Source of the DNA: Cymodocea nodosa
Taxonomy: Eukaryota > Streptophyta > Magnoliopsida > Alismatales > Cymodoceaceae
Assembly: GCA_036874045.1 (NCBI GenBank)
Contig: CM072338.1
Location: 18,002,501-18,066,500 of the forward strand
Direction of reading: 5' to 3'
Length of the DNA stretch: 64,000 nucleotides
Each line of letters begins with the position of its first letter. Within the stretch, counting starts at the first letter, position 1. Below are positions 12,586 through 63,690 of this stretch, piece by piece. The notes below the pieces were generated by a model. It did not search any database. It saw only the letters and a program-made list of their open reading frames with translations, and was not told where the DNA came from. The position numbers and the translations under genes were made by a program.

Positions 12586-15500
12586 CTAGCAAAGAGGAAG
12601 TTCGCTCAGGGACTCTATTGTAGCAATGCAGCTGCGATCGGACTTCTTAAACTTGTTGTACGTGCTCTTTAACCGTGTTTTATTTGCCGATCTTTGAAGC
12701 CGCAAAATCATATCAGCACAGTCCCTGAAAATAATACAGAATTACTCAAGGTATGCATTTTTTTAGTCTACCAATACTTTTTAGATTTGCTCAAACCAAG
12801 AAAAAAAAGTGATACCTAAGATCAGTCTCCTCATAGCGAGTGTGCTTCTTGAGAAGCTCTGACCAAGTTGGAAAGATTTGTAAAGTACAGCATGCCACAT
12901 AGATTGCTGATGCACTGAGGAGGGATGGTCTGAACTTCACTGCTTCGAATTCTACCAAACACAGCTCAATGAGGTAGAAGGATAGGTGTTCAAGCTGCCA
13001 AGAATAACAAAGATGGCATGATTGAAAATTAGCAAAAATTCTTTACTTACAATGAATTAAATAAATCTCGCCTAAGCACAAGCATTCACCTTTTCATCAG
13101 ATTGAGCAGCCTTCAAAAACCTTAACATAAAAACATAAGGTGTAGGCAAGTTCAAGCGATACCTTAACTTTTCGAGGATGAGCTTCTCCTGAGGAAAAGA
13201 GAAGGGTCACATGGCATATAGTTCAGAACAAAAAAAGAAAAAGAAAAAAAAGGAACATCAACACACCATAGTGAGAATTTCAGATCTTGTGTATGTGAAC
13301 ACTGATATACTGAGCAACTCTTTGATCTGCAACACAAGCAGCAACAGATGTTGAAGGCTTCACAGAATACGAGATTACTTTGCATGTGAAACTAATTTAA
13401 AATTAAGTGCCCACCTTTGGATGCCAAAAGTCTTCGTATTTTGAAGCCAAAAGGAGAGCAGTGAGACCAACCAGCTGCAAATTACCTTTCTTTATAGGAA
13501 CCACAGACAGAGTTCTATCAAGCAACTCTACCATGAGAAAAAGTGTCTCTTGCATCAAATCAAATCTATAGTGTACCTGATCCCAGATTTTTTTTTCAGA
13601 ATTGCTTAGACATAATCAACAATACGAAATGCCAAATAAGAACTTGCCGTACTTCTATCAACCAGTCAACAAGTATAGCCCGCATTTCTGAAATTATTTT
13701 CCCCTGGTGTGTCGTATAATCTTCTGGTAGAGGATTTTGAAGCTGCTACCAAAGAAAAACCCACAAAACTTCAGCAGTTACAAAGTTCTGAACCTTAAAA
13801 CATAATCAAGAAATAGGCTCAAGGTCGAGAATAGCCAAAAGTAGATGAATTTAACATAACCCTATGAGGCTATGAAAAGCACATGCACTTCTTTCTAGCA
13901 GTAATTAGAAATGTCATTGTGCTCTCTTTTATGTCTATGGATACAAACCATAAAGTAAACTGAAAACAGAGAAGCCAGAAAGGCCAGCAACTAGGAGGCC
14001 ATGTGCTACTAGATGAAATTTGTATGAAAAGAAATGAAGCTACAATTTCTAAATGAGAAACCAAATACATCGGAGGTTATGCATAAAACTTTCCTCTGGT
14101 TTTGATATTCAAGATACAATTATTTTTAAAAGAAAGAATACATACAAAAAATGGTGACAACTTATTCATGGGAAGAAAGCAAAACAGAATCGAGAGCTGC
14201 ATATATCAACCAGCAAAATGTACCACCATATTTATCTCTATTTCAGGTAGCAAGTACTATTGTCATGTGAAGCAAATCAGTCCATGTTTGAGCTCATGAT
14301 ACTAAAGACCCTAGAAACACTCCTAAAAATTTTTAAATTGCAAAGCATAGTGGTAACTCCTTACTACTTGATATTTGCCCTAGAAATGCATCAAATGCAG
14401 TTTGCAAAAAACATGAAAGCACATTCTCTTGCTGTGGCACAGGCCAGTTTGCAAAAAGCAGAAATCATTTTTCACAAGGACGATACCTGTGGATGAGGAT
14501 AAACTGGCACATCTTTGCAAGATGAAGACACAAGAATAGATGTACATATTTGGCAGGTTAGATTTGATAAATAATTTTCTACATTATAAGAAAATCCATA
14601 GTGGCTGAACCCACATGGTAGAATTACAACTTGGATTGTTATTGTTGTTGTATAAGCAAATCGACATACACTACAAATAAGAAGCAAAATAAACATCAAA
14701 ACAAAATGCAAAAGGAAGATATCCAAATGATTGGAAGTAAAATAAAATATTCCATAAGTAAAAACTTAAACGTTATGATTTATCAATAAAAAAGGGATGA
14801 TGTACAAGGACATGAAGCAGTTCTACTGAAATGATCGAATCACCTCCATGTTCCAGTAATACTTATAAATCTCGTCTACATATTCCACAACTTCAAGGTG
14901 GTTTGTATCATCATCAATATTTGGGAGCTTATCCATCTTACACAAGTGATTGCATTCTCCAATAAACTGACAATTGATTGATACCGTCAATAAGGTAATA
15001 ATGTAAAAAATATTAGGAAAAAAGTAACTTGGTAATATTACACTGCAATCCATTACCATTGATGTGAATGATTTACGTCTGATACACTTTGCTCTGGGAA
15101 CAATGACAGTCACCTTATCAGAAGAATCTGAGACATCACCATGACGTGCTCCGTGTATATTGGCAGCAACCTTCTCATCAGAACACCCTGAGACAGCACA
15201 ATGATGGCTTTCTAGGTCACAATATTGCATAAGAATAACAAGGTTTTCACAAAAGTATCTGGTAGTTCAGGATCTTTATTTACTAGTGTATTTTCACTAC
15301 CATGTTTCTTTGAAGTAGAAGCACTTGTTGATATTGAAATCACGTTATTCTTGGATCTGCATCTGGGTGCACTGGCTGTCTCCTTTTCATAATGATGTGT
15401 TCCGGGTACATTGGAAGCAACCCTCTCAATAGAAGAGTCTGAGATAGCATAACGATTGATTGCTATGCTATTCCCTTGTGCACAAACATGGTTTTTACAA

Positions 15501-18500
15501 TTTAAATTTTCTGGTACTTCAGCATCTTTATTTGCTCGCATTTTTTCACTATCATATTTCTTTGGAATAGAAGCATTTCTTGATATCGAAATCTTATTAC
15601 TTTTAGATCCTGTTAATCTGCTGATCTTAATTTCCTGAATTCATGAAAAAGACATGTTAAAACTTCAAGTTGGAAGAAACCAAAAGCAAATAATTACCAT
15701 AACTTTCTTAATTTGAAAGCATTGAATTTAAACAATAATGAGAGCATGTTAACATTTCAAAATTTCAACATGGACATGTGAAATTAGTAAATAGAATGTA
15801 GTGAATCAAAGCATTGTGATTGATTGCCAGGCTATTCTCTTGTGCACAAACAATGTGATTTTCACAAAATAAATGTGTCGGTGTTTCAGCATCTTTATTT
15901 GCTAGCATTTTTTCACTATCATATTTCTTTGGAATTGAAGCATTACTAGATATTGAAATCTTATTAGTTTCGGATTCTGTCAGTCTGCTTATCTTAACTT
16001 CCTGGATTCATGAAAAGGACATGTTAAAATTTCCAGTTAAAAGAATCCAAAAGCAAATAGTTACCATAACTTTCTTAATTCAAAAGCAGTAAATTTAAAC
16101 AAGAATGAGAAAATGGTAACATTTCAAAATTTTAACATTGACATCTGAAATTAGTAAGTATAATGTAGTGGATCAAGATATAAAAACAGGAAACAGAAAA
16201 CAATTTTTACAACTGAAACATGGGAAATCCACGACAGAAACAGAGATCTAAAGCTTAGCATGCAAGTCAAGCAGAGGTATGTATTGATTATATAAACCAA
16301 GGGAATAGAGATAATTAGGTTTATGAAATGAATAGCTTATACAAATAATAAAGCACAATTTATTAGGAAAATAATTATATACAACAGTCACTCATTCATG
16401 TAACCTACCGCTCTAGGTTTCTTTGAAGATTTAACATCCACAGCTTTTAGTTTCAATATAGAAGACCTGAAAAGAAAGCTCAAATTGGAATAAAATATAC
16501 TAAGAAATGATGAAGATAATGGAAATATTTAAATACAATATGACAGTGTAAGAATACAAGAAATAGGTAAAAGTAGATCAATTCATTACTAAACATAAAG
16601 TTTCTATATATAAAGGTTACATAGAGATGACAAGCATATCTTAAGTAATGTGATGTGAGACGAAACTCACAACACCCATATAATCTTAATACATTATTGC
16701 TCTAACACTCTTCCTCAAGATGAAACATTTAACTTGTAACAAATTTAATAATTTAACAAATTTAAATATAACAAGAAATAATAAATACACAGGGGAATAT
16801 AAAAAAACTAATTGTTATATTATTAACGGAAAAAGGTAATAATAGTTACTATAACAAAAGTAGTAACAAAAATAACATGAGATAAGTCTATGAAAAACTA
16901 TATTTTAGACAGTAGTAAATTCACCATTAGATATAATATGAGATAGTAAAATAGATAGATAGATGTGGTTTATCCTTGGAAAACAAGTAGATAAATGTGA
17001 TCTACCCTCAAATATATATATATACACACATACTTCTACCATTTTTAACCTTTTTTTTTTCTTTTACACGATTTTTTCCTTTTTTTTCCCTTCCTCTCCC
17101 TTTTTTTTTCTCTCTTCTTTTTTTGTTCTTTTCTTTCCTTTTCTCTTTCCTCTCTCTCTCTCTCCTTTTTTTTCTTTCCATTCTCTTCTCCTTCTTCCCC
17201 TTTATGTACAACTCGTTTGTCACCTCCTCTACAACCCTAATGGGGGTGAGCAACAATGAGCGCAATGGAATCCTCTAGCTCCATGTACACGTATGCAAAA
17301 GATCCACCAATAATAAGAATCTCCACAATGAACTCAATGCAACAAAAGATAAAAAGTAGAGAGGTGAACCCTAGCTTGATCTTTAGATTCCTCATGCTTG
17401 ACTGTTGATGATGGAGATTGAATGGCTACCTCTTTGGTTTCACCACGACATTTGTCAATGTGGTTACTAAAAACTTGTTAAGGGAGTCTCTAGCAACCTC
17501 ATTGGTTAGCTTCTACATCACATCCTAGAAGTTGTTGGTGTTGGCTTGGATGAACGTTGCTGATGGTGATATGATCTTTATTGATGCAAATAGAGTTAAA
17601 GTCTAGGTCACATTCTAGTTCATGACCAACCTCTCCATCACCCCTCCAATGATTTAAACTTAAGGTTTGAGCTCCAAGGATGAGAATTGGTGGTATAAAT
17701 AGAGGGAAATGTGGAAAAAGGCACTTAGCAAAGAGAGGGCAACCAACACAAGAGGGTGATGACACTAGTAATGGCAAAAAATCTAGGTGGACAATAAGAG
17801 AGGGACTAGACATAGGAGGAGGGGTGTCAATGGCAACTTAAATGGTTAGGGTAGACCAACAATATTGTTGGCAATAACTTGGATAAGGCCTACCAACAAC
17901 AATGGTTGGGAGTAGGGTAGTGATTTAGAATTTTCTCCTTCCTACCTAGATCTCTTGCATTTTTTGAACTTTCCAAACCTAAACTTTGATGACATATGAG
18001 AATATAAGAAATAAATGAAGTGGGATTAATTCATTAGTAAACATAAAACCTCTACATAGAGAGGACAACATATTAAGTAATGTGAGACTAAACCCACAAC
18101 ACCCATATAATCTTAATAGCTTATTACTCTAACAGATAAAGAATAAAAACCCTAGACTAGAGAAATCCGACATAGTTGCTGCCAAGGTTTCAGATATCAA
18201 TCTATATCAGCAATTTTTCACTGATACAGTTAGAATTTTAAAACACTTGATCCCAAAACATACTGTATTTCAGGGATTGCATATTTTTGGATGATTTTTC
18301 TTGTAGGATTGATGCATAATCGAAGAATCATACAATCTTCATCATCTTTTCATTTGCTGGAGGATAGATTGATTGATCCATCATAAGGATTGATCAATCT
18401 AGAGAGATGGGTGCTCCATTGTAGTCACCATTAATTGCTGAAAACTCTGTCGAAGGGCTTGCTACTAAGCGTTGTATCTCTTCCATGTGTCACTGGTCTC

Positions 18501-35712: not shown

Positions 35713-38700
35713 TTACTCTCGTTTTGCCCCTTCCATGGCTTCTTTCTTTGTTTGGCAGCTTGGGCAAAGAAAAGGACCGTCCCTTGGACGTAATCTACCA
35801 TGCTTTGCAGGACCAGCATGTACAGAAGTGCCCTCCCCAGGTTTGATCTCAACCTGGCAAACAGCACATATGAACAACTTGAACATGTTGCAAATGGGAT
35901 ACTCTGCATCTAACCTGTAAAGGTAATAAAGATTAATGACTAAAATATAGGGCAAGATGAAAGAACTATCCCACTTCATATGCTCGTTTTCAATGCCATT
36001 CAATTTTCACATTGTGTATATTTTTCGTAAGGGGATCATATATAGCTTTTTGTTTTGCATTTTTCTGATGAAATGGTATCATGGCAGGAGCCATGGAACA
36101 ACACGTTTTCTCAAACATGAGGATAGTTAAAAAAACTAGCACACAAACCTTTCAGCTAGTACTGCAGATCCCCCTTCAAAGATTTCCTCGACAAGGTCTG
36201 GTTCATTATATTCTCTATCTAGATTTGAAGATTGACCAGAGTGTTTTCTACAAAACATGGTTTTCAATACTCCCTTTCCTTGCTTCTTTTGTGATGGATT
36301 TGGAGTTATTTTTTCAGGTGGCAAGATATCGACTACAATACAAGTAGTATCATCTCTTAAACCTTGTACCTGTACAGCTTCCTAGAAATAGAAAAAAAAT
36401 TGATAAACTGAACAGATTAGGGAGAAATGTAACAAATAAAAGCTTCAACATCTCATTTTAAAAATGTAGAAAGCTTGAGAAAGATAAGCACTTTGACAAT
36501 ATGAGAAGCAGCAACATCTGCCGGAAACCCACGGGAACAACTTAGAGCCACTTCAGGTGTTAAAGCATCCCAAACACCATCACTTGAAATAATAAGACGA
36601 CCTCCAGCATTTGACAGCTGAAACAATCAGTGCTGGTCAGTGCTAGTCTATGGTAACTCTTTCAGAAATAGAATTAAGATATATACGTTTACAAAAGTAA
36701 AAGAGCATGACAAAATCATATCTACAATAAAACATTCTTCAACTTCGACATTCAACGAATGTCTTAAAAAGCAGGTTATTTTAGAAATTCTGGCCGGAAA
36801 AAAGCCTTCAAATTAGAAAGAATAAAGTCAGAACAATGGTAAATTATGGCAGATTTACCATGTAATTTAGGGATAGGCATCCAAACTGATGAAACCAGTT
36901 AGCCAAAAACCAAATCAGCTATAGTGTTTGGTTCTTTTCTTTATCAAAAAACCTGATCGTGCACTTGGAAGTCAATTCTTGCTAGTTTCCCATCTTCCTC
37001 GTCGATCTTTAAACCTTTCAGGGAGTCATTTGGGCAATTGAGAGAAGGTGCGTTGCTAAAGTATATTAATATATTAGAGTTAAGTGTTACATGTAGATTT
37101 AATCTCACATTGTTTAAGTTGTATTTGTCTTCTTCAAGTAACTTTTATATATAGAAATCTTATGCTTTTTTTAATAAGATCAATTTCACTTTCATTTCTT
37201 CTTTATTTCAACATGGTGTCAAAACTTAGGTTTTAAGAGTCTAAAAAAATGTTAAAGATTTAGATAAAAAGGAGGGAAACCTTAACTACCACCCTAGTCC
37301 AAAAGGTACAAGAAACTGATATGGATCCACAATTTTTTGCCCATCTGAATAGATTCAGAAAATTATGCTTGCACATTTGCAGAGTGGACGCATTGCCAAG
37401 AATTTTGCATTACTGATGCTAGGAGAAGTACACCTTTATGATTACTTTTGGAATTATAAGTACGAAGATGATAGTTTACACTTTACAAACCTTCACTTGC
37501 TTGACATAGGGAATGGGAACGATAAACTCGCCAACATCAAAATCTCCAATCGATCTAGATAAGCACAACCCACCAGGCCAGCATCTAAGGGGACCAATCT
37601 GCATAGAAATATTCATATATAAAAGAGTAAATACTTGTATATTAATGCAAGTGCAAGATAATCTTCTATAATAGTTGGATTTCAATTCAAGTTTGTTCAG
37701 ATAATAAAAGTTTCACTGCTTGTAAGGACTACACATGTTCTAAGAATTTAACATTAAAGGCGTATATAGAATGTATGATTTGGTGCCATTTAAATTTATA
37801 GAGTATCTACTACAAAGGAACAATAAATCTACAAAAACAACAATAATAATCAGTATCTTAATTTTACCATGTAGGATCAATTACATAAATATTCCTTTCA
37901 TTTATTTACATATATCACTAAGTCTTCCATTAAATTACATAATTTTACATCTTTTTTCGCTGTTTCTACGTAATCAAGTAATTTTTTGTCTTCTTTATCT
38001 CTTCATCTTAAATTAATTAATTCTCCTTTCCCTAATAGGTACCTATAAACCTTCTATAGATATCCCAAATCATATAAAATTATTTTTTTATTTTATCCTT
38101 AATAGATACAACTTCTATCTTATTTCACATGAAATTTTGTCTTACATGCTACCAATACTTATTCATCACGACATTTTCATTTAGACTAATTATTTGTACA
38201 TGTTTAATTTTTTTGTACAATTATGCTAATTTTTTGTTTATGTTTAAAAACCAAACACTAGGTCAATAGATGTGATATAAAATTTTCCTTTTAATTTAAG
38301 GTTATTTTTTATCACATAACACTTTTGATGCATTTCTCTACTGTCTATCCCACTTTAATTATTTTTTGAAAGAGAAGCATTTGTGAAGGAGAAGTGAAGA
38401 GAAAATATATTTCGTATGCAGTGAATTACACACATATATATAGGGCAATGAATAACTAAAAATCTATTTACCCAATAAGAGACTCATGTAAATAATGCAT
38501 ACTAGTAAGATGACTATTAATTTTTCAAGTTGGAGCATATATATTGACCATGTCCAACTCATGCAAAGTATCTTGAAAATTCCAACATTTAAATGCTTTG
38601 CAAAGATATCAATCATTTGCTTTGAAAATTGTGTATGAAAGAGAGATGAACCCTCACATTACTGTCTTGAACAAAATGACAGTCCACTTCAATGCATTTT

Positions 38701-55700: not shown

Positions 55701-58700
55701 CCCTGGAAAGAAATGCTTCTCTTCCAGACCTCCCAAAATGGCAATGGGTCAATCTGCCTCTGACCCTGCCCCACCCATGCCCCTCCAATATAACCCATCT
55801 TTGGGCATGATGCTCTCGATATTTTTTGTGTACCTCCACTGCAATCTTGAACATGAAAGGGCATTAGATTGATAGGTTTGACAACACTGTAAATAGTAAG
55901 GGAGGCTTTCTGCATCAAGACAGAAATCTACCATCTACCATCCATCAGAACAACCTCTTTTCATATCCATTAACCATTGTGTTCCATTCTTTAGCTTGCA
56001 ACACCTTGATGCCTAGTGGCAATCCAAGATACTGGAAAGAAAACTGCAGCCTTGAAACCAAAGGAAGCAGTGGCTTGCTACACAAACAGATCCCCACAAC
56101 AAATACCAGCTATTGTAGACATGGAAATTAAAATTCAGTCTCGTTACAAGTTACAAATCAAAGAAGCTCAACAAGCATGGCAAGCTTTGCCCTTGAATAC
56201 TTGATCTTCTGAGGTATTTGTGAAGATGATAGTATCATTAGTGTATTACAAGCATGGAACACAAACACATTCCATTCATGGGACAAAAGCTAGAAAATCT
56301 CCCATTCCTCATGGTGGCATTGCACATCTTCCCCAAAACCTTCACCAATGTGTGTACCAATGCTAATTTCTCAATATTGCCTAGTGTGTTTGATCACTTG
56401 GACTTGGTGACTAAATACCAAACCTGCTAATCTTGATGGATATTATCTCTCTAAGATCATTAGTTCTTCCTCAAGGAACTAATTATACATCTTAGTCTAG
56501 GTCAACATTGAAAGTGCTAGTTTTTTGAAAGATGTTATAGGCATTGTTGGAGTTTAGGTGTGAGTTTAGCCCCACATTACTAGAGCTATGTTTGTCCCTT
56601 CTATGTAGCCTTTATATATAAAGGTTTTATTTGTTTGTTTATGAATGAAATTATTGAGGAACCTACTGAAGGACTCGATGGGAGATGGGCTAAATGACTC
56701 ATAGGTAGACTATGGGTGAACACTTTAAGGACCTATGAGGAGACTAGTGGAAGGACCTTACAGATCCGATGGAAGAAGGGAGAAGACCTTAGAAACCTAT
56801 GGGAGAAGACAATTAATCTTAATGGTTCCTCTCACGAACTCGAACTTGTAAAGAATTCTAGGACTTATTTAAAAAGATTAATAACGTCTTTGCTATTAGT
56901 TCGAGTTTTTGGCATAATGATAGCCTGATCTTAACAAGTGGTATCAAAGCCTACTCACAAATGTAGGTTCGAATCCCTGAGGATACATTATGGAATGCAT
57001 TTTTCAGGGGGAGGAGATTCTTGAGGAACCTATTAAGAGACTTGATAGGAGATGGGCTGAAGGACTTGAAAGACCCATAAGCAGACAACGGGTGAATACT
57101 TTAGGGATCTATGAGGAGATGAGTAGAGAGACCTTACGAACTCAATGGGAGAAGAGAGAAAACTTTAGAGACTTATAGGAGAATGAGGTTAATCCTAATG
57201 TTTTCTCCCATGAACTCAAATTTATGAGGGATTCTGGGGCTTACTTAAAATGATTGGTAACATTTTTATTATCAACTTAAACTTTTGGCATACTGGTAAC
57301 TCGGTCCTAACAGAAATAAAACTTCCACCTCATTTCTTGTATTTCCAACATAATATCAAAGCTTAGGTTTTTAAGGTCCAAAAGTGTGAAACATCAAGGT
57401 TGAGAGGAGGGAAACCTTGATCATCACCCTCCTTCCAACCAACCAAGCCACTTTCTAAGTTGTCATCATTGTTGACAATCTTGCCTCCCTTGGTGTTGAT
57501 TGCCTCTCTCTACTGTTGACTCCCTTTCTCTCCCATCCCTATTATCAATGTCTCCACTATTATTCACCCCTCTCCTCTTGTCTCATTCCTCATTGTCATA
57601 ACTCTTCTCCTTTTTTTCCACATGTGGTTCCAAGCCTTCTTGATGTGTTCACTCCTTTCTCTTCTGTGTAATGTTGACGTACTGTGTTTGTTATAAGACA
57701 TCACTAGCACTTCTTGATGTCTGTTGGATCATTGTGGCAACCACTATCATTATTCCTTTACCTTTGGGTTCACTTTAAGGGGTAGAGATTACATTGCTAC
57801 TCATTGCTTATCATCTCTTTTCCTCTATCACCTTCAATGCTCTCCACCTCCTTTATTAGGGAAAAAGTGTTTAATGCTTTATTATCAATCTTTAATTAAA
57901 TTAGTTGTATTTTTCTCATGTGACTGTCAACATTATAGTAGCTCTATCAAAGTTGTTTGTTTTCTATGAGATCAATCTTAGTGATGGACAATGTTGCCCT
58001 GTTCTTTTTTATTAGATGATTGATGATGGTTATATTTGTATTTATAAGAGCATGTGTAAGCCTTTTAGTATGTATAAGTATTTGTATGTTGATTGAGTCT
58101 AATGATATCAACAATGAATCAACCTATTAATATGTGCAGGTGTTCATATGTTGACTAAGTCTAATGATGTCAACAATGAAATAGTGTGTACATCTGTTAA
58201 AATGTGATCAACTAAGATTTGGCCATTTTTCTTGCACAACATTACTACTACTTGTTGTTAGTGTCTACTTTGATGTATCTCTCCTTAGGTATACAAGTTG
58301 GAATCCCTATCAACTGCATAGAGATAGAATCTGACTCACTCTCCCTTGTCAATGTTTTGAAGAACGATCGATGCATCTCTAGATAGGCACTCTCCATATG
58401 GCCTATTGCACTGGACCTAGTTCATCATGCCTTTTCATTCAGCTATATTAAGCATGAAGCAAACTTTCTTGCAGACATTACCAAGCATGCGTTGAACATC
58501 ACTTAATAAGTGCTCTTCTACTTTTCTTTTCTTCAGAGTTATTCATACTTTCAGCCATAATTTTCGAAGTGCAACCAAGATAGTTAGAGCACAGATTAAT
58601 CTTCCAATCAAACCAAATCATGTTCTCGTGAAAATCATATATGCTGGTGTGAATGCAAGTGATGTAAGCCTTTCTCTTTTTATTGGGAACCAAAAGACAT

Positions 58701-62518: not shown

Positions 62519-63690
62519 TGTTGGAGTAATAATATATTAAGATCATATGGGTATTGTAGGTTTAATCCCACATTACTTAAGATATATTTGTCTTCTCCAT
62601 GTAATCTCTATATAGAGAGGCTTATATTTGCTATTAAGATTATTCCATTGCCACTTATCTCTTGTATTTTCACATAATATTAAAGTTTAGATTTTGAAAG
62701 TCTATAAAATGTAAAAGATCTAGGTAAGGAGAAGGGAAACCCTAGTCATTACCTTCTTCCCAACCACTATCATTGTCGGCCCCTATCGAGACCACTGCCA
62801 TTAGTGTTGTTGGTTTTTTTCTGGCCATTCAAACTGGTATCTGGCATCCCAACCACCACTGTCATCTCTACCCTTCCCTTGTTATTTACACAGTTTTTCT
62901 AGCACCATTGGTCATCACCATGCTTCCCCTACATTTTCCACCCACCATCATTCGCCACCCCATGCACTGGTCCTGTTACAACCAACAAAATAAGGGAGAA
63001 ACCCTACCTTCCTCCCATGCTACTCCCTTGGCATTTCTACTACCACTAGGTCATTCAATCTCCTTCTAACATTGCCAATCCCTTTCTTGCCACTATAGAT
63101 ACATCCTTCTCTCCTACCAATCACTAGGGTCTGTCTTCTCCCTCTTTCTCCACCCATCACTAAGGGTTGCCATTACATACTATAAGATTAATTGTAGACT
63201 GACCAATATCAACAGTGACCCTATCAAGCTTGTCTGACTAGTGATCCTCTGCTACAAGGTATTCAAGCCCATCCTCCTCAGTTGACACTACTTTGTAAGA
63301 GTGGACATGAGGATTCAAGTCAAAGGTATTGGATGGCCTACTAGATGCATTATTGTCTCTTTTCTTTTGTCACCATTTGTTGCCCTCTCTGTAAGTGGTA
63401 GCACTGATAGATGGAAGAAGACAAAGGGGGAAAAGGAGAAGAGAGGTGAAAGAAAAGAAAAGGGAAAATAAAAGGAGAGAAAGAGGAAGAAAGAAAGAAA
63501 AATGGAAAGGGAGAAAGGAAAAGAAAAAGAAAAAATGGAAAAAGAAAAAAAATAAAAAAGGAAGGGAGAGAGAAAATTTAAAAAGTTAAAAGGAAAAAGT
63601 GAGAAAAAAAAGCAAAAAAGAAAGAAGAGAGAAGAAAAAAATTATTATGTAAAAAATTGTGTTTAAAAAATGATGGAAGTATATTTAAAA
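62519..63690 (+). mobile_element. Family A short-LTR element, 5' LTR, leader and purine-rich interior
   Basis: LTR 62519-62674 starts TGTTGGAG and ends TTTTCACA. A degenerate tRNA-Met-type primer site (AATATTAAAGTTTAG) follows at about 62676, then the family leader (GAGAAGGGAAACCCTAGTC). The interior has no gag or pol but a 230-base GA-rich tract (63408-63640) ending in AAAAAATTGTGTTTAAAAAA. A 3' LTR was not found before 64000 and may lie outside. Confidence 0.75.
63408..63640 (+). repeat. Long polypurine tract
   Basis: Over 200 bases almost purely A and G on the plus strand, matched in kind by 18570-18720 (+) and by 17050-17200 (CT on +). It is a shared feature of the family A interior. The long open frame of Lys, Arg and Glu here is a composition artefact. 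Confidence 0.85.

Follow-up and report, generated by a model that had tools for sequence, protein, structure and literature searches.

A tandem duplication across an intron-exon boundary of a mitotic cyclin gene and the choice between two near-identical acceptors in Cymodocea nodosa

When a live acceptor is copied within a gene, how does that gene settle the choice between two near-identical sites: by gaining an intron, by tolerating noise or by regulation? This question is raised by a mitotic cyclin gene on the minus strand of a 64,000 nucleotide (nt) stretch of Cymodocea nodosa DNA (contig CM072338.1, positions 18,002,501 to 18,066,500 of the forward strand), hereafter the window, in which all coordinates given below are counted. 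In this gene, the end of an intron, its acceptor and the first part of the following exon are present twice in tandem, and both acceptors continue the same upstream exon in the same phase. Judged from sequence features, use of the outer acceptor most likely reflects noise that the gene tolerates rather than a regulated switch; if the choice of acceptor did turn out to be regulated, it would amount to a cell-cycle control.

The duplicated unit is about 365 nt long. The outer, upstream copy (copy A, 16175..15809) and the inner, downstream copy (copy B, 15808..15446, also recovered by the repeat search) align on the minus strand over 366 columns with 85.2% identity, 51 mismatches and one gap in a blastn comparison (E 1.26e-118), which rules out a chance repeat. 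The two copies adjoin directly, and each carries an intron end, an acceptor and an exon start, so that the duplication spans the intron-exon boundary. In the alignment, the intron part differs at 22 of 171 positions (87.1% identity) and the exon part at 30 of 189 (84.1% identity), in addition to one 3-nt indel. The divergence of about 14% between the copies argues against a duplicate created by the assembler, and a false duplicate or a misjoining of two haplotypes is therefore unlikely. The tandem arrangement reported by the first-pass annotation is thus borne out, with a unit slightly longer than the approximately 360 bp given there.

The upstream exon (16466..16409) ends in phase 0 before GTAGGT, and the frame together with the splice sites confirms that both the outer acceptor, at 16001, and the inner acceptor, at 15634, follow it in phase 0, as had been proposed. 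All splice site scores reported here come from a home-made consensus with weights based on general knowledge and, for donors, from pairing to the U1 end, not from a trained plant model. On this scale, the outer acceptor scores 5.79 (rank 11 among 498 AG sites) and the inner acceptor 5.69 (rank 13), both inside the range of the 13 frame-supported acceptors of the gene (-1.7 to 9.4), and two C/T differences separate the copies over the last 20 intron bases. Read straight on, the frame opened by the outer acceptor runs for 78 codons and ends at a TGA (16001..15765); this alternative path accordingly brings an early stop, as a poison exon does. The 78 codons claimed previously are correct, and the truncation is not obligatory, because 22 solutions with one further intron keep the frame open from the outer acceptor.

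The inner acceptor does not lead directly to the cyclin either, contrary to the earlier claim. Reading straight from 15634 to the next donor (15057) yields 140 codons and then an in-frame TAG (15214..15212) ahead of the cyclin box. The joined length leaves a remainder of two when divided by three, and the later cyclin coding frame (open reading frame 15266..14823) differs from the frame opened at 15634. The cyclin can be reached only through a further intron, a different base count near 15255 or another acceptor, for example 15113; by arithmetic, a count that differs by one could make the further intron unnecessary.

Outside the disputed exon, 13 exons share one joined frame with GT...AG at every junction. 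Five upstream coding exons (21549-21447, 21139-21104, 21027-20964, 19884-19836 and 19719-19662, minus strand) were placed by joined frame, and seven downstream exons on the same strand (14966-14844, 13742-13653, 13576-13415, 13326-13267, 13188-13090, 12994-12816 and 12724-12586) contain an intact cyclin box and the stop. Exon boundaries were picked by eye from consensus and frame, and the 5' end of the gene is not settled, so the model of 15 coding exons is counted from the first confidently placed one. The seven-exon tail (12586..14966) encodes 283 residues, with the stop ending at 12586, and its best matches among solved structures are cyclin A2 followed by cyclin B1 chains (among the 60 listed of 71 hits). 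The joined model matches the Pfam profiles Cyclin_N (3.6e-38) and Cyclin_C (1.2e-32) over nearly their full length, and the gene is an A/B-type (mitotic) cyclin. The first upstream exon (21549-21447) encodes RKALVDVTN, which we take to resemble a destruction box. The name CYCB3, introduced by the first-pass annotation, may apply, on general grounds and by intron richness only.

The most probable route from the inner acceptor to the cyclin involves a third, older copy of the exon motif within the same exon. This copy (copy C, 15252..15357, minus strand), found by repeat search and alignment, lies 252 nt from copy B and matches it over 223 blastn columns at 73.1%; at a TTTT run near 15255 it lacks 4 nt relative to copy B, and the frame breaks at this end. 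Removal of a candidate 113-nt intron at 15300..15188 (ATG/GTAGTG ... TCTCAG/GG), proposed on the basis of consensus sites and frame, yields an uninterrupted joined frame of 560 codons. Under this model, the disputed exon would be split into a part bounded by the inner acceptor and the candidate donor (15634..15301) and a 3' part in the cyclin frame (15187..15057), the latter placed by its open reading frame and the joined frame. The candidate donor at 15301 has a U1 pairing of -4.8 kcal/mol, compared with -1.6 to -8.8 for the 13 frame-supported donors, and the acceptor before 15187 ranks 14 among the 498 AG sites. With one intron allowed, 62 solutions starting at the inner acceptor keep the frame open, and 15300..15188 has the highest summed score among them (11.5). 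Given that 5.4% of 1072 shifted positions across the locus offer a compatible donor-acceptor pair of equal quality, these values lend the 113-nt intron moderate support. A weak further repeat is present within the exon (15060..15370), where 15204-15147 matches 15144-15090 at 72% (E 0.005), and the N-terminal coding part thus looks assembled from repeated units. The 90-nt intron that follows position 15057 (14967..15056) has a length divisible by three and is free of in-frame stops; its retention would therefore preserve the cyclin frame.

Several further routes through the region were considered. From the outer acceptor, the best open one-intron solution joins the donor at 15947 to the acceptor at 15187 across 759 nt; this donor, at -1.6 kcal/mol, equals the weakest of the 13 reference donors, and the long intron is not favoured on these scores. 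Direct splicing from 16409 to 15113 would give an open, shorter cyclin lacking the repeats through an acceptor that scores 2.56 (rank 49 of 498), and is likewise not favoured. Inclusion of the outer copy as a cassette exon that keeps the frame was rejected because the donor it would need, at 15852, is too weak. Pairing is good for another donor at 15698 (-5.1 kcal/mol), but the resulting exon would include the stop and only 63 nt would remain to the inner acceptor. A fold hiding one of the acceptors was also rejected, as the 901-nt pre-mRNA segment has a z-score of -0.78 and 3 of 20 shuffles folded at least as well.

The explanation that we favour, and consider moderately probable as a whole, is as follows. 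The tandem duplication, some 365 bp in length, crossed the intron-exon boundary of the mitotic cyclin gene and produced the two acceptors; the cyclin would be made mainly from the inner acceptor at 15634, with the whole outer copy leaving within a 774-nt intron, and the short extra intron 15300..15188 most likely excises the frame break in the older repeat. Given that the outer acceptor scores as well as the inner one, it is probably used at some level, and the resulting mRNA would stop after 78 codons, without the cyclin box. An mRNA with such an early stop is expected to undergo nonsense-mediated decay. Use of the outer acceptor would most likely be tolerated noise.

A number of observations weigh against this explanation, some of them concerning the route and others the fate of the outer copy. 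With respect to the route, the preferred solution is closely followed in score by two one-intron alternatives that also start at the inner acceptor (10.6 and 10.5), and the support for the 113-nt intron is confined to consensus. The outer acceptor combined with the intron 15947-15187 also gives an open frame, with a summed score of 10.3 vs 11.5 for the inner route; the outer acceptor comes first in order and scores equally, and might itself be the main one. With respect to the outer copy, the ratio of non-synonymous to synonymous divergence between copies A and B (dN/dS) is 0.34 (dS 0.392, dN 0.133), and the 15 amino acid changes between them are fewer than the neutral mean of 20.2 obtained by simulation (P 0.016, or 0.022 when stops are excluded). 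The deficit is pronounced in the first 49 codons (11 changes vs 16.2 under neutrality, P 0.008); in the last 14 codons there are 4 changes vs 4.1 (P 0.65). The sole indel in the aligned exon part, 3 nt long, is in frame, and with copy C as the outgroup over 29 codons, four of the five changes in the outer copy fall at third positions (0, 1 and 4 changes by codon position in the outer copy and 0, 1 and 1 in the inner copy), counts that are too few to rest on. Together, these signs could mean past or present coding use of the outer copy.

The deficit could also be explained by constraint on the inner copy alone. The differences between copies A and B are distributed evenly over the codon positions (10, 8 and 12), and conservation of the exon part does not exceed that of the intron part; both would be expected of an outer copy that is not maintained as coding sequence. 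That the outer copy is free of stops is unsurprising, as the frame stayed open in 59%, 47% and 38% of the simulations when 15, 22 and 30 neutral changes, respectively, were introduced. The comparison of copies B and C over 29 codons yields 14.5 non-synonymous vs 2.5 synonymous differences, so that the N-terminal region apparently evolves rapidly anyway. Given these mixed signs over several tests, we do not claim coding constraint on the outer copy.

The alternatives to the favoured explanation differ in what they make of the same features. The first-pass annotation offered an on/off splice switch or, as a second option, a slowly decaying defect. Under the former, unproductive splicing would be regulated, with the outer acceptor serving as a poison site that is used at set stages to reduce cyclin output. 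The equal acceptor scores and the stop after 78 codons, upstream of many later junctions, are compatible with such a site, and the switch reading stands as far as two acceptors of similar strength in competition and truncation along the straight outer path are concerned. The acceptor and the frame of the outer copy have also stayed open despite about 14% divergence, although 59%, 47% and 38% of the neutral simulations were likewise free of stops. The switch itself finds no backing in the even distribution of differences over codon positions (10/8/12) or in the RNA fold, which is not unusual (z -0.78), and the productive path through the inner acceptor, the proposed "on" state, is incomplete because it depends on an additional splice or a changed base count; regulated unproductive splicing accordingly appears improbable. 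The second option, slow decay of a defect, fits no less well. In a separate reading, the gene would be damaged, either because the assembly miscounts the bases of the TTTT run near 15255 or because of a real frameshift, such that neither acceptor gives a full cyclin from a single continuous exon and the 113-nt intron is a product of chance. This would account for the straight inner path stopping after 140 codons and for copy C being 4 nt shorter than copy B near 15255, and chance is possible for an intron whose equal in quality is found at 5.4% of 1072 shifted positions. The complete cyclin domains and the uninterrupted joined frame of the remaining exons on both sides speak for an intact gene, however, and we regard damage as unlikely, if still a serious contender.

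To each of the two remaining alternatives we attach very little credence. In one, an intron would have been gained in the manner described for a potato RdRp gene (PMC4974935), with 16001..15852 kept as an in-frame exon of its own (150 nt, 50 residues) and a new donor spliced to the inner acceptor. The geometry is that of the potato case, the donor at 15852 keeps the phase without introducing a stop, and amino acid changes are few within the first 49 codons, whereas the codons that follow show no such shortage. This donor is the sole open phase-0 GT that adds more than one codon among the 12 GT sites listed for copy A; its U1 pairing of -0.3 kcal/mol by the simple pairing score (72nd percentile among 489 GT sites) is weaker than that of all 13 frame-supported donors (-1.6 to -8.8), which disfavours intron gain of the potato type, and the downstream frame break would still need resolving. 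In the other, an equally long shot, at least two duplications would have reshaped the exon: the older, in-frame one would have lengthened the N-terminal region, and its second copy would then have broken the frame, leading to the 113-nt intron, whereas the younger one would have copied the acceptor and opened an unproductive, stage-dependent path, so that competition between duplicated sites would set the N-terminal part and, through it, the level of the cyclin.

Considered against known systems, the locus adds another instance to an established class of mutation, for which the potato RdRp gene (PMC4974935) is the closest published case found. There, too, the duplication takes in the 3' end of an intron together with the 5' part of the exon behind it, with copying of the putative branch site, tract and acceptor; in potato, it created a new intron through activation of a cryptic exonic GTAAG donor, as supported by 106 reads from RNA sequencing, whereas the only useful phase-keeping, stop-free donor ahead of the inner acceptor in the cyclin gene (15852) is very weak. 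As a second plant case, in which the copies have diverged further and no new donor is obvious, the cyclin gene would provide a useful contrast. In the Drosophila cases of intron gain (PMC2891723), a tandem duplication likewise arose within the gene and an intron then formed from one copy; premature stops were reported in 18 of 18 such introns, and a role of nonsense-mediated decay was suggested. The segments duplicated in Drosophila were exonic and carried a proto-splice site, in contrast to the cyclin duplication, which copied an existing acceptor. The candidate 113-nt intron is similar to exitrons, as described in PMC4484396, in that it lies within sequence that is coding in a sister repeat, and differs from them in that its retention breaks the frame. 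In the CYCB3 group, which is reported only from eudicots, most Brassica napus members have 19-20 introns (PMC11207893); the gene analyzed here is similarly intron-rich, with a model of 15 coding exons whose 5' end is not settled. Among the matches listed in the open-licence literature, none describes a CYCB3 gene spliced through duplicated acceptors.

Repeats of a different kind are present in the intron upstream of exon 16466 (16551..18134). Two direct repeats of about 150 bp, starting with TGTTAGAG, are located about 1.4 kb apart and share 74.4% identity over 168 columns; the arrangement resembles a small element of the long terminal repeat type. Matches of the same family are found elsewhere in the window on the other strand, at 62519-62674, 56573-56646 and 37105-37167.

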